A DNA stretch of 36,027 nucleotides, from positions 1-36,027 of IMG/VR virus record IMGVR_UViG_3300036900_000232. One strand, 5' to 3'. The DNA comes from a virus. The number at the start of each line of letters is the position of its first letter. The first letter of the stretch is position 1. A program made the translations under genes and the position numbers. Shown one piece after another: positions 106 through 32,288 of this stretch. The notes beneath the pieces were generated by a model. It was not told where the DNA came from. It did no database searches and saw only the letters and a list, made by a program, of their open reading frames with translations.

Positions 106-792
106 GCCAACATCGCTCCGCTCGTTTCATTTTACCTTTCCGCGCTTCACCACTGGTCGCGCTTCTGGAACGGCGGGAACCAGTGGGCCGGCTACTGCGC
201 CTACCTCTCGTTCTTCCGTGAGGTGGCAGAGCTCGAGCTACCCATCTACGACAAGTGGATCCACTTCGAGGAGGCCGCGATCCACGGCGGCCCGCGCTTC
301 ATGCACGAGAAGTTTTGGATCGTGAGCGACTTCCCAACGGTCGTCGCGCGCGACGCGCAGAACCGGCCTCATCGCGAGAATGGGCCGTCGATCGCCTGGC
401 GCGACGGGTGGGCCGCCTACTACTGGCACGGCGTCAAGGTTTCAGCGGACCTAATCCTGCGCCCCGAGTCGATCACGGTCGCGCAGATCGATGCGGAGCC
501 AAACGCGGAGATCCGCCGGGTCATGGTCGAGCGCTACGGCGCGGACCGCTACCTCCGCGACGGAGGCGCCAAGCAGATCGCGCGCGACAAATACGGGATC
601 CTGTGGCGGAAGGACGTCCGCGACGACGAGCCGCTTGTCATGGTTCAGGTCGACAACAGCACGCCGGAGCCCGACGGCTCGATCAAGCAGTACATGCTCC
701 GCGTGCCGCCCGACATGCGCACGCCGCGTCAGGCGATCGCGTGGACGTTCGGGCTCGCCGAGAAGGAATACAGCCCCCTGGTGGAGACCTGA
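1..792 (+). CDS. DUF6745-like protein, C-terminal part (cut by contig start)
   Basis: The frame is open from base 1 and ends at TGA 790-792, so this is the 3' part of a gene that starts at the other contig end (35394). It begins with tetrapeptide repeats (see the repeat entry), then a region rich in Trp and aromatic residues with WAGYCAYLSFF, then HEKFWIVSDFP, RENGPSIAWRDGWAAYYWHG, and a tail containing RRVMVERYG. From memory these match the C-terminal half of DUF6745 proteins of actinobacteria, myxobacteria and phages; their function is unknown. The GTG at 223 is in frame but is not a credible start, because conserved sequence lies upstream of it. The next gene begins 5 bases after the stop and has GGTGGAG ahead of it inside this gene's end. 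Confidence 0.8.
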   Translation, partial: TWAATRAATEAATRAATWDATRDATWAATRDATEAANIAPLVSFYLSALHHWSRFWNGGNQWAGYCAYLSFFREVAELELPIYDKWIHFEEAAIHGGPRFMHEKFWIVSDFPTVVARDAQNRPHRENGPSIAWRDGWAAYYWHGVKVSADLILRPESITVAQIDAEPNAEIRRVMVERYGADRYLRDGGAKQIARDKYGILWRKDVRDDEPLVMVQVDNSTPEPDGSIKQYMLRVPPDMRTPRQAIAWTFGLAEKEYSPLVET

Positions 793-796
793 GCCG

Positions 797-2308
797 ATGG
801 ATCCGATTTGCCTCGTCGACCTCTCCGGCGTGTTCTGGCGCAACTGGCACGGAAGCGTCGCGAAGGAAGCGACCGCCGCCTACCAGCTCACGCTCGGCAA
901 CATCCACAAGATCCTCGACGGCTGCACCGTCCCGCACGCGGTAGCGGTCGACGCCGGCTCGTCGTTCCGAAAGGAGATCGCGCCCCTCTACAAAGCCAAT
1001 CGACCCGAGAAGGACGCCGCCGCGAGCGACCAGTTGCGGAGCGTTATCGAGCGGCTCACGGCCGACGGAATCAAGGTCCTTCGCGCGGAGGGTTGGGAAG
1101 CAGACGACGTGATCGCGACGGCGACCCGATGGGCGCGCGCGAAGGGGCACCCCGTCGAGATCTACTCGGCCGATAAGGACCTCCTCGCGCTGGTGACCGA
1201 CGAGGAGCCGCGCGTCGTCGCCGTCCACCCGTTCAAGGGCGAGACCTGGGCGGCTGCCGGCGTCTTCGAGCGACTCGGTGTGCCGCCGGACAAGGTGCCG
1301 GAGCTCCTCTCGCTCGTCGGCGACACGAGCGACAACATCCCGGGCGTCAAGGGCATCGGCCCCGTGAACGCCTCCAAGCTGCTCGCAAGCTTCGGATCGA
1401 TCGCGGGCATCCTCTCGGCGTGCGATGACCCCGCGAGCGACATCCCGCCGGCGGTTCGCACGAAGCTCGTCGCCGGGATCGGTGACCTCGATCTCTCGAG
1501 CAAGCTCGTCGCGCTGCGCTTCGACGCACCGATCGACTGCGCGCAGATTCTCGAGCCGCGGGTGATTCCTCCGCCGGCCGCGCCGCGCGAGCTGGGCGGC
1601 GGCAAGAGCATGGGGGGTGGCAGCCTGGAGCATCAGGCGTCGCTCTCGAGCCAGGTGGCGTTCGAGCAGGCCAACCTGCGACAGCAACATCTGCTGCAGC
1701 GGCAACCAATGCGGGAGCCGCCTGAAGTGAAGGGCGAGCCAGTGGCGCCGCGCTCGATCCCGACGTCGAGCGCACTCGCTCGTCGCGAGTCCGAGTCGTG
1801 GGAGCTCTCTCTCGAGCCGTCCACGCCCGAGGAGGCCTTCAAGATGGCGGCGACCATCTTCGATGGGCGCCTGTTCCCCGCATACGGCAACGAGGCGGCG
1901 GTCTTCTCGATCATCCTCACCGGCCGATCGCTCGGGCTGTCGGCCATGGCGAGCGTGCGCGGGATCCAGATGATCAAGGGCAAGCCGTGCCTCTCGGCGG
2001 ACCTGATCGTGGGCCTCGTGCGCAATTCGCCGCTCTGCGAGTACTTCGAGTGCGTCGAGACCACCGACACGCGCGCGAAGTACGTCACGAAGCGGCGCGG
2101 CCGGCCGGAGATCTCGTACGAGTTCACCATCGAGGAGGCGCGGAGCCGCGGCTTCACGTTCACGAGTCGAGACGGCCAGCCGGCGCAGTGGTCGACGAAC
2201 CCGCGCGGGATGCTGCGCGCGGCGTGCAAACGAGAGCTCGCGCGGCTCGCCTACGAGGAGATCGTGGCCGGCGTCTACACACCCGACGAGCTTCAGGAGA
2301 GCGCATGA
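797..2308 (+). CDS. 5'-3' exonuclease (FEN) joined to a RecT-type annealing protein
   Basis: 503 residues. Residues 1-255 look like a T5/Pol I-type 5'-3' exonuclease: DLSGVFWRNWH at 8-18, acidic cluster GWEADD (E101, D103, D104), SADKD (D126, D128) and VGDTSDNIPGVKGIG at 174-188, the last being the metal-binding and helix-hairpin region. Residues about 256-340 are a Gly/Pro/Gln-rich linker. Residues about 341-503 resemble RecT-family single-strand annealing proteins: LGLSAMASVRGIQMIKGKPC, LSADLIVGLV, W..NPR.ML at 465-473, and AGVYTPDEL at 491-499. Together they would resect and anneal DNA ends, as lambda exo and beta do from separate genes. An in-frame ATG at 1610 (residue 272) could give a separate annealase. 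The ORF is uninterrupted, so the fusion is seen in sequence; the functions are inferred from motifs. Confidence 0.85.
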   Translation: MDPICLVDLSGVFWRNWHGSVAKEATAAYQLTLGNIHKILDGCTVPHAVAVDAGSSFRKEIAPLYKANRPEKDAAASDQLRSVIERLTADGIKVLRAEGWEADDVIATATRWARAKGHPVEIYSADKDLLALVTDEEPRVVAVHPFKGETWAAAGVFERLGVPPDKVPELLSLVGDTSDNIPGVKGIGPVNASKLLASFGSIAGILSACDDPASDIPPAVRTKLVAGIGDLDLSSKLVALRFDAPIDCAQILEPRVIPPPAAPRELGGGKSMGGGSLEHQASLSSQVAFEQANLRQQHLLQRQPMREPPEVKGEPVAPRSIPTSSALARRESESWELSLEPSTPEEAFKMAATIFDGRLFPAYGNEAAVFSIILTGRSLGLSAMASVRGIQMIKGKPCLSADLIVGLVRNSPLCEYFECVETTDTRAKYVTKRRGRPEISYEFTIEEARSRGFTFTSRDGQPAQWSTNPRGMLRAACKRELARLAYEEIVAGVYTPDELQESA

Positions 2309-2808
2309 AAGCGGAGCAGACCGATCACGAGATTGACCGATCCGGGTGGCGAGCTGGTCCGTGGGACAGCGAACCGGATCGCGTCGAGTGGCGCGCGAGC
2401 GGCTTCCCGTGTCTCGCGGTCCGAAATCACATCGGCGCCTGGTGCGGGTACGTCGAGCTGCCGCCGGGCCACCCGCTCCACGGCGCCGGCTATGACGCAG
2501 CAAACGGGAGGCTGGAGGACGGAGTACACGGCGGCCTGACGTACGCGGGGGCGTGCTCTGGCCCCGTCTGTCACGTTCCTGCGCCCGGGGAGTCAGAGGA
2601 CGTCTGGTGGCTCGGATTCGATTGCTGTCACGTCGGCGATAACTTTCCGGGTCGCGCAGATCCGGTGTGGTCCTTCGCGAACGAGTTCGTGAGCGCGTTC
2701 GGTCTGGCCCAGACCCGCGCGCGCGCCGGTGAGTACCGGGACCTTTCGTTCGTCCGATCCGAAGTCGAATCGCTGGCGGGGCAGCTCTCGCGCCTGGCCG
2801 ATCCGTGA
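2305..2808 (+). CDS. Conserved phage hypothetical protein
   Basis: 167 residues. The ATG overlaps the previous stop (ATGA). It is soluble and Trp/Cys-rich, with WCGYVELPPGHPLHG at 46-60, VHGGLTYAGAC and WWLGFDCCHVGD. I recognise this pattern from many phage proteins of unknown function that sit near recombination or replication genes. The conserved Cys and His residues could bind metal, but no known zinc-finger spacing is evident. It sits between the exonuclease-annealase and the HTH gene in one coupled operon. I assign no function. Confidence 0.8.
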   Translation: MKAEQTDHEIDRSGWRAGPWDSEPDRVEWRASGFPCLAVRNHIGAWCGYVELPPGHPLHGAGYDAANGRLEDGVHGGLTYAGACSGPVCHVPAPGESEDVWWLGFDCCHVGDNFPGRADPVWSFANEFVSAFGLAQTRARAGEYRDLSFVRSEVESLAGQLSRLADP

Positions 2809-3026
2809 GCGACGCGGCTCAAGCAGCGCCGGAGCTTCTCACCGTCCGCGAGACGGCGGCGCTTCTCGGCTACTCCGAGGCGAACATCTACAAGATGGCG
2901 GAGGCGAACCAACTGCCTGGAATCAAGCGGATCGGCCGCCGTCTTCGCTTCTCGCGCGTCGCCCTCGTATCCTGGCTCGCCTCGGACGAACAGCGCGCCT
3001 CGCGACCTCGAAAGGGCAAGCGATGA
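2805..3026 (+). CDS. Excisionase-like helix-turn-helix protein
   Basis: 73 residues with a GTG start overlapping the previous stop (GTGA). The core LLTVRETAALLGYSEANIY, followed by LPGIKRIGRRLRFSRVALVSWL, is the MerR/AlpA-type HTH_17 fold: a recognition helix, then a wing with RIGRRLRF. It ends in a basic tail. Such proteins act as excisionases or DNA-bending directionality factors. Its stop overlaps the integrase start, which supports a role in excision, but a regulatory role for the integrase operon is equally possible from sequence alone. Confidence 0.8.
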   Translation: MSDAAQAAPELLTVRETAALLGYSEANIYKMAEANQLPGIKRIGRRLRFSRVALVSWLASDEQRASRPRKGKR

Positions 3027-4108
3027 GCGTTCGAAAACGGAAGGACGGCCGATGGCAAATCGACGTGGTGACATGGGTTCGCGGCGAGCGCGTCCGCGTG
3101 AAGAAGAGCGGCGGGAGGACGCGCGCGGAAGCCCTGGAGCTCGAGCGGGCGGAGCGGCGACGGCTGGAGGACGGCGGCCCGGTGAAGCGCGGGCGGTGCC
3201 CGACCGTGGCTGACTTCGCGACCGCCTTCCTCGACGGGTACGTGGCGGCGAACTGCAAGCCGTCGACGGCGACCGCGTACCGGATGCACCTCGAGCGGCA
3301 CCTCGTCCCGGAGATCGGCGAGCTCCCCGTCGATGAAGTCGGGCCGCGCGAGGTCGAGCGATACAAGGCGAAGAAGCTCGCCGCGAAGCTCGAGCCGAAG
3401 ACGGTCAATAATCACTTGACCACGCTCCGGCGGATGCTCGCCGTCGCGGTCGAGTGGGGGACCTTCCCCGGCCCGGTGCCGAAGGTGCGGCCGCTGCCGC
3501 TCGCGCCGCGCCGCTTCGACTTCCTCACGTTCGAGGAGTCGGCGCGGCTTCTGGAGGCCGTGACACCCGCCTGGCGTCCGATGGTGCTCCTCGCGCTCCG
3601 GACGGGGCTGCGGCAAGGCGAGCTCCTGGCGCTTCGCTGGGAAGACGTGGATCTCGTCGCGGGCCGCCTCATGGTCCGCCGCTCGGTCTACGCCGGCCAC
3701 GTCGGAACGCCGAAGGGCGGCCGGGAGCGGGAGGTCCCTCTCTCGGATGAAGCGCGCGCGGCGCTCCGGACGCTCCCGTCGAGGTTCGCCGGCGAGCTCG
3801 TGTTCCCGCGCGAGGGCGGCCGTTACCTGACGCCGCCCGGGTGCCGGCGCCCGCTGTGGACCGCCTGCAAGAAGGCGGACCTCCGTCACATCATGTGGCA
3901 CGCGCTCCGCCACACCTTCGCCTCGCACCTCGTCATGAGGGGCGTTGCGATCAAGGCGGTCCAGGAGCTCTTGGGCCACGCCTCGCTCGAGATGACGATG
4001 CGCTACGCGCACCTCTCGCCGGACGTGCGGCGAGACGCCGTCGCGCTCCTGGACGCGCCGGCGAGCGCCGGCGGAAGCGACCGGGTCCCGATCGGGTCCC
4101 GGTCATAG
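3023..4108 (+). CDS. int: Tyrosine recombinase (phage integrase)
   Basis: 361 residues. The ATG overlaps the upstream TGA (ATGA). An N-terminal Arm-binding region (MSVRKRKDGRWQIDVVTWVR) is followed by a core-binding domain at about 60-150 (TVADFATAFLDGYV) and a catalytic domain at about 165-345. All catalytic residues are visible: R197 in TGLRQGELLALRW, K231 in TPKGGRE, H293 and R296 in HALRHTF, H319 in LLGHASLEMT, and nucleophile Y328 in MRYAHLS. It should integrate the phage genome at a host tRNA: a tRNA-3'-end-like sequence lies about 30 bases past its stop. It is the last recombination gene of the plus-strand arm. Confidence 0.97.
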   Translation: MSVRKRKDGRWQIDVVTWVRGERVRVKKSGGRTRAEALELERAERRRLEDGGPVKRGRCPTVADFATAFLDGYVAANCKPSTATAYRMHLERHLVPEIGELPVDEVGPREVERYKAKKLAAKLEPKTVNNHLTTLRRMLAVAVEWGTFPGPVPKVRPLPLAPRRFDFLTFEESARLLEAVTPAWRPMVLLALRTGLRQGELLALRWEDVDLVAGRLMVRRSVYAGHVGTPKGGREREVPLSDEARAALRTLPSRFAGELVFPREGGRYLTPPGCRRPLWTACKKADLRHIMWHALRHTFASHLVMRGVAIKAVQELLGHASLEMTMRYAHLSPDVRRDAVALLDAPASAGGSDRVPIGSRS

Positions 4109-31690: not shown

Positions 31691-31842
31691 GGCCGCGGCT
31701 CCCGAATCGCGATGACGCGATCGATCGTCGTGCCCCACTTCGCAGCCGCCGCCGCGCGCGCCTCGAACCAGGTTGCGGCCTCGACGCGGCACATGCGCGG
31801 CTTGCCAGGCTGGCCGGCCAGGGTGCAATGCCACTTGTTCAT
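31687..31842 (-). CDS. Small hypothetical protein, 51 residues
   Basis: ATG 31842 overlaps the nuclease stop (ATGA). It has WHCTLAGQPGKPRMCRVEAA then TWFEARAAAAAKWGTTIDRV: a two-strand start followed by one helix, a layout typical of small double-psi or RNA-binding-like phage proteins. Two Cys residues. I recognise no named family. Confidence 0.55.
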   Translation of the reverse strand: MNKWHCTLAGQPGKPRMCRVEAATWFEARAAAAAKWGTTIDRVIAIREPRP

Positions 31843-32288
31843 GACTCTCCGCTCCTCAAGTGCTTCGCGCACTTCCTCAGGTAGGCGCCGGCGAGCGCGG
31901 CACCACAGCGCGCGTTCCCGGCAAAAATCGTTGCGATATCCCAGCGGGCGAAAAAGGAACCGAGCGACCCGAGGAGGGCGTTCGGCGAAACGGTCGAGCG
32001 ATAGAGCCCGTCGACGAGCGTGCCGAGCGCGCCCTCGACGACGATGACCTTGCGCTCGTAGGTCGCGAGCCGATCGAGCTCCCGCTCGAAGCGCTCGCGC
32101 CCCTTGGTGAGCGTGCCGACGAGATCGCCGAGCGACTTGCGCTCGATCGCCACCTTCGACTCGAGCCCGACGATCGAGTAGTCGCCGGCGTCGAGCTTCT
32201 TGCGGACCGTCGGCACGTCGGCGGGGAACTGCCAAGGCGTCTGTTCCCTGGAATCGATCGCGATCTCGTAGGGCGCGTCGAGCTTCAC
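31839..32288 (-). CDS. ERCC4/XPF-type nuclease
   Basis: 149 residues. GTG 32288 overlaps the upstream stop. The XPF motif GD-x(n)-ERK-x3-D is complete: G35-D36 in AGDYSIVG, E49-R50-K51 in VAIERKSLGDL and D55. D12 in IAIDSREQTPW is the first acidic residue of the fold, and FERELDRLATYERKVIVVEG supplies the next helix and strand. It is a structure-selective DNA nuclease that could cut branched intermediates left by the exonuclease-annealase pathway, or resolve replication forks. Many phages carry such single-domain ERCC4 proteins. Confidence 0.85.
   Translation of the reverse strand: MKLDAPYEIAIDSREQTPWQFPADVPTVRKKLDAGDYSIVGLESKVAIERKSLGDLVGTLTKGRERFERELDRLATYERKVIVVEGALGTLVDGLYRSTVSPNALLGSLGSFFARWDIATIFAGNARCGAALAGAYLRKCAKHLRSGES

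Follow-up and report, generated by a model that had tools for sequence, protein, structure and literature searches.

The closest described systems are the SynExo two-component recombinases, such as lambda Red and RecET, in which the annealase and its partner of the PDDEXK fold (lambda Exo, RecE or YqaJ) are two separate polypeptides. In lambda Red, a 5' nuclease, lambda Exo (a PDDEXK trimer), is paired with Redbeta, an annealase of the RecT/Redbeta fold. The C-terminal domain of Redbeta, i.e. the region past the annealing core, binds lambda exonuclease and SSB (PMC8303780). Redbeta that lacks this domain anneals DNA and gives no recombination; recombination of dsDNA requires a contact between Exo and Redbeta, and the partners in lambda Red and RecET are specific and not swappable (PMC5052646). 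The RecE/RecT system and the phage PDDEXK-RecT pairs, e.g. gp54-gp55 of the Gordonia phage SmokingBunny (locus L087), are likewise encoded by two genes, and their RecTs have a long C-terminal extension.

We analysed a stretch of viral DNA (the window), which is a single metagenomic IMG/VR virus record of 36,027 bases with a GC content of 70%. One uninterrupted ORF at 797-2308 (+), with an ATG start, a TGA stop and a length of 503 aa, was identified as the coding frame by codon-position bias. The first-pass annotation had placed a nuclease of the FEN type together with an annealase of the RecT type in this frame; Pfam and PHROG profiles agree on the former, and PHROG profiles and the fold model on the latter. 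The order of nuclease and annealase, as well as the annealase family, is the one seen in RecE/RecT and in the PDDEXK-RecT pairs, and the annealing core, as modelled, agrees with the structure of Redbeta. The window protein differs from all of these systems in that it is one polypeptide, its nuclease is of the unrelated FEN/PIN type, and the C-terminal domain of Redbeta is absent. We think that the gene probably encodes a single-chain exonuclease-annealase (a 'SynExo' in one piece) for phage DNA recombination and repair. Neither half belongs to a new family, and the reaction, too, is probably that of the described SynExo systems; the novelty lies in a single chain that has a FEN nuclease, no C-terminal domain and an annealase that can be exchanged. 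Such a one-piece form of a two-protein phage recombination system is apparently undescribed: a search of the open-licence literature turned up no description of a FEN-RecT fusion, and a mention elsewhere is possible.

Table 1. Coordinates of the fusion gene, its parts and its neighbours in the window.
Feature	Positions	Strand	Evidence
DUF6745 gene (PF20530), 5' neighbour of the fusion	223..792	+	Pfam 1.8e-55
FEN-RecT fusion gene	797..2308	+	503 aa; ORF, Pfam, PHROG, relatives
FEN / PolI-type 5'-3' nuclease domain, aa 4-248	806..1540	+	Pfam, phrog_107, AF2, invariant residues
Gly/Pro/Gln-rich flexible linker, about aa 249-336	1541..1804	+	low pLDDT, sequence
ATG 272 (M272), in the linker	1610-1612	+	sequence
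RecT/Redbeta annealing core, aa 339-502	1811..2302	+	phrog_561, AF2, Foldseek
ORF of no assigned function, 3' neighbour of the fusion	2305..2808	+	ORF list
HTH_17 excisionase-like ORF, before the integrase	2805-3026		PF12728 2e-13
Tyrosine integrase	3014..4108	+	Pfam PF00589 7.5e-33

The fusion gene starts after a gap of 4 nt from the end of the DUF6745 gene, and the two are probably parts of the same operon. At the other end, the TGA stop of the fusion (2306-2308) and the ATG of the next ORF (2305-2307) overlap. Given the tyrosine integrase and the small HTH gene, along with recognisable portal, terminase, helicase and internal virion proteins, the window phage is a temperate tailed phage. 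A search for its close relatives via the terminase found none. We also observed a small gene for an ERCC4/XPF-type nuclease at 31839-32288 (-), with matches to phrog_3490 (4e-22) and PF02732 (7e-15).

The nuclease half is not the usual PDDEXK partner of the lambda Exo or RecE kind, a point made already in the first reading of the sequence. Instead, it is assigned to the FEN type by two Pfam families, 5_3_exonuc_N (PF02739; aa 4-159, 1.2e-25, 90.5 bits with a cut-off of 34.3) and 5_3_exonuc (PF01367; aa 162-248, 3.6e-21, 75.9 bits with a cut-off of 40), and it matches phrog_107 at 3e-27. Its relatives in the PDB are Taq PolI and the 319-aa 5'-3' exonuclease 6c33, and the AF2 model of the domain has a pLDDT of about 96. 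Twelve positions (D8, D52, R58, K66, R69, E101, D103, D104, D126, D128, D176 and D179, window numbering) were identical in 49/49 fused proteins. They comprise the acidic residues that bind metal and, in the arch region, the Lys/Arg; most of them are also found in the PolI rows. Judged from this alignment, all catalytic acidic residues of a FEN domain are present, as had been claimed.

The 5' nuclease of DNA polymerase I, Xni, T5 exonuclease and the stand-alone 5'-3' exonucleases have the same two Pfam domains and the same active-site residues, with identities of up to about 36-43% between the FEN half and the N-terminal domains of PolI. These known enzymes are either joined to a polymerase or alone, whereas the window FEN is joined to an annealase and falls in a separate clade. 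In the FEN-domain tree, the 34/34 fused sequences used were in one clade (SH-aLRT 98) together with three others. All three were initially taken as unfused; L142 and L156 turned out to be fused to other annealases, and only L160 is a stand-alone FEN. A PolI-type FEN frame on the GTDB MAG contig JAJXZP010000228.1 (L005:2192-3451) continues, as judged by eye, into a stretch resembling the C-terminal part of elongation factor P; this contig is probably chimeric.

For the C-terminal half, the Pfam RecT family PF03837 gave 19.7-21.7 bits (E 7e-4 at 19.7 bits), compared to a gathering score of 24, which is exceeded by the fused relatives L130 (25.9 bits) and L145 (26.1 bits). The PHROG profiles gave stronger matches over aa 339-502, to phrog_561 (RecT) at 7e-17 with the whole protein and at 1e-17 with the half alone, and to phrog_4171 (RecT family) at 4e-13. 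An AlphaFold model of this half alone had a mean pLDDT of 92. Its best PDB match by Foldseek was the N-terminal domain of Redbeta (7ujl, E 8e-6, TM 0.60), followed by RecT of phage A118 (7ub2, E 8e-3). The C-terminal half, as modelled, has the fold of the Redbeta/RecT annealing core; the suggestion that it might not be a RecT at all fails on both the PHROG profile and the fold. The protein stops at the annealing core and has no C-terminal domain.

The full-length AlphaFold model showed two confident domains, with a pLDDT of about 93 for the RecT block, and a pTM of 0.60, as expected for two bodies joined by a flexible link. The linker is rich in Gly, Pro and Gln, in agreement with its first description. 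It is predicted to be disordered, with pLDDT below 50 at 270-277 and 282-332; the disordered part spans about aa 250-335, i.e. about 85 aa. Across the 49 members, the linker is poorly conserved and its length varies from 46 to 207 aa with a median of 81. A short acidic-aromatic motif (e.g. AEFDE, DAEYE or DDIAF) resembling the C-terminal tip of SSB was seen in the linkers of L130, L138, L300, L331, L303, L145, L134 and L307 and at the C-termini of L133 and L139; the window protein does not have it.

Scans with the window protein as a single sequence detected no relative of the fusion, only FEN/PolI matches and one short RecT match. An alignment query (the window protein and PolI rows) found 14 IMG/VR loci with both halves in one uninterrupted frame, and two further alignment scans brought the set to 49 distinct FEN-RecT fusions in IMG/VR, the window included, all of them single-frame. 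The 48 other proteins are about 30-50% identical and come from independent contigs of many metagenomes; related phages with the same fusion, which the first-pass annotation had advised looking for, thus exist. Split adjacent genes in nuclease-annealase order, offered there as the contrary case, were not found among the relatives. Elsewhere, at L162 (1465-3708), RecT, an HNH-like ORF (recognized by eye) and a FEN are nearby separate genes with RecT first.

Outside IMG/VR, none of 50,697 GenBank phage records, queried with four members (three FEN-RecT, one FEN-phrog_3290), covers 80% of the fusion protein at one place. A Foldseek search of BFVD returned A0A6J5MUB0, a 'PIN_53EXO domain containing protein' of 462 aa from an uncultured Caudovirales phage, which aligns across the whole fusion (505 columns, 34% identity). 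It seems that one FEN-RecT member is already in UniProt under this accession, with a name that covers the nuclease half only. No fused prophage was found in sampled genomes of four phyla (195, 296, 398 and 150 genomes), reached through Corallococcus, an actinomycete, an alphaproteobacterium and a gemmatimonadete. The same genomes did contain unfused RecTs, which indicates that the search itself worked.

The fused and unfused RecTs differ sharply past the annealing core. In the fused proteins whose 3' end is complete (47), the core is followed by 0-12 aa, compared to a median of 114 aa for the unfused RecTs (131 distinct cores, one at 32 aa and the others at 76 aa or more). A cut at 20 aa therefore separates the two groups, with 47/47 fused proteins and 0/131 unfused proteins below it. 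The apparent exception is L322. It begins at the end of its contig and clusters with the fused proteins, so that a truncated fusion is the probable explanation.

The gene neighbourhoods differ as well. A gene for a PDDEXK exonuclease was detected near RecT in 78/204 unfused loci and in 0/55 fused loci, in a search that compared the loci with five examples and one Pfam family, where the flanks of the fused loci were often shorter (3 kb vs 4-5 kb). The family PF12684 was absent from all fused records searched, and the window gave no PDDEXK match. At the four unfused loci that we inspected (L089, L100, L332 and L087), the PDDEXK gene is directly upstream of RecT; the calls in L089 and L100 were made by eye from the sequence. 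Compared with these loci, the FEN domain occupies the place of the gene for the resecting exonuclease.

How many times the C-terminal region was lost depends on the history of the fusion. A quick RecT tree placed the fused forms in two groups. A tree keeping all fused RecTs together, however, had a higher likelihood than the two-group tree. We prefer a single origin of the RecT fusion as the simpler reading of the trees; the C-terminal loss may then be one event and not a repeated pattern.

A more independent sign of functional coupling than the C-terminal loss is the exchange of the annealase. FENs of the same type were found at the N-terminus, with a long linker, in proteins with C-terminal annealases of other families: a Sak4-like protein in L142 (2926-5124; phrog_124 2e-19, Pfam AAA_24), where an SSB gene directly follows the fusion; Sak4 in L429 (5e-34); Mgm101 in L401 (PF06420 4e-28); and single-strand annealing proteins of phrog_3290 in L156 (1e-42) and, by type, in L143, L147 and L155. 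The annealases differ in kind from RecT, Sak4 being RecA-like and Mgm101 belonging with Rad52. For example, the FEN-RecT protein of L145 and the FEN-phrog_3290 protein of L143 share 70% identity in their first 353 aa, i.e. the FEN and the linker, and have unrelated C-terminal domains; the annealase was thus exchanged while the nuclease and linker stayed constant. Whether the phage FEN clade as a whole is a tethering platform for at least four exchangeable kinds of annealase (RecT, Sak4, Mgm101/Rad52 and the phrog_3290 SSAP), with the linker replacing a specific docking domain, is a proposal to which we give even chances. In another phage lineage, a FEN-type nuclease is fused to a uracil-DNA glycosylase (L189:2992-4572; Pfam UDG 6e-26), possibly making a one-chain enzyme of base-excision repair.

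In the mechanism that we propose for the window protein, the N-terminal FEN-type domain would attack 5' ends and leave 3' single strands. At the other end of the disordered linker, the tethered RecT core would bind the emerging strand and anneal it to a complementary strand. In the absence of the C-terminal docking domain known from RecT/Redbeta, its role would fall to the covalent tether. The direct hand-off of single strands from nuclease to annealase, put forward in the first-pass annotation, is a part of this mechanism that we infer, as are the polarity and substrate of the nuclease and the annealing activity. Functional coupling of the two halves, on the other hand, is strongly supported by the comparisons of genes and proteins given above. 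Several points make the mechanism less straightforward. The C-terminal domain of Redbeta also binds SSB, a loss for which the tether does not account. RecT is active in oligomeric form, and it would be awkward for each annealase subunit to carry its own nuclease. FEN enzymes are known mainly for 5' flap cleavage, and several of them, e.g. E. coli Xni, are weak exonucleases, so that long-range resection would need unusual processivity.

These properties of FEN enzymes suggest the reverse order of events, in which RecT anneals an incoming strand, e.g. at a fork or between repeats, and the tethered FEN then cuts the 5' flaps to ligatable nicks, the 3' overhangs being made by another nuclease. The 5' nucleases of the FEN/PolI kind are indeed structure-specific flap enzymes, and Senkevich reportedly found in 2009 that a predicted poxvirus FEN1-like nuclease is needed for homologous recombination and break repair. 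The ERCC4/XPF-type nuclease of the window could remove 3' flaps. As a conserved partner, however, the ERCC4 gene had to be discarded, with a single occurrence in 25 fused records, that of the window itself. The trimming order also calls for a nuclease making the overhangs, and no PDDEXK exonuclease of the known families was detected in the short flanks of the fused loci; furthermore, the FEN sits where the gene of the resecting exonuclease sits. We therefore favour resection with hand-off over flap trimming after annealing, and regard the latter as possible but unlikely.

An addition compatible with the other readings is that the gene makes two products, the full-length protein and a free linker-RecT from an internal start at the beginning of the linker. 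Free linker-RecT would solve the stoichiometry problem. In 24/34 members, an ATG lies in frame close to where the linker starts, and 10 of these members have a Shine-Dalgarno (SD) sequence at or below -8 kcal/mol. An SD this strong precedes 10/37 (27%) of the proximal linker ATGs, compared to 5% of linker codon positions and 2/316 of the ATGs within domains, and the family-wide signal is enriched by position near the linker start with p of about 1e-5. Conversely, a null model with synonymous recoding of the same residues gave equally strong SDs (combined p 0.82), so that the linker's own composition may cause the signal. Moreover, 10/34 members have no ATG near the linker start, and in the window the ATG at residue 272, once suggested as the source of free annealase, has no clear SD and is not supported as a start. 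We consider the second product doubtful.

In another reading, the fusion would only co-express two independent functions, the FEN removing RNA primers of Okazaki fragments and RecT annealing DNA. PolI-type FEN domains process primers in cells, the linker is long, variable in length and poorly conserved, and the FEN-UDG protein of L189 is a fusion of FEN to a different activity. Such co-packaging, however, would leave unexplained why at least four types of annealase are the C-terminal partners of this type of FEN, and why the fused RecTs have no C-terminal extension and no partner exonuclease detected near their genes. Taken together, the several annealase partners, the absent extension and the absence of a detected PDDEXK gene nearby point to functional coupling and make independent functions improbable. 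As for an assembly or sequencing artefact joining two genes, which a single metagenomic record might raise, a read error or frameshift is refuted by the 48 other distinct single-frame relatives and by A0A6J5MUB0 in BFVD/UniProt, and its likelihood is negligible.

Returning to the single-chain exonuclease-annealase, a natural protein of this kind that has no docking domain, and that occurs with several annealases on one nuclease type, makes it directly testable whether an exonuclease and an annealase must touch for phage recombination, a question that has been addressed in lambda Red and RecET. The fusion is also a one-gene candidate for recombineering. If the idea of a tethering platform is true, these fusions would be single-chain recombinases of a class of their own, with a linker standing in for the specific docking domain because of which the partners in ordinary exonuclease-annealase pairs cannot be interchanged. 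More broadly, the fusion suggests that FEN-type nucleases, besides the PDDEXK ones, partner annealases in phages.
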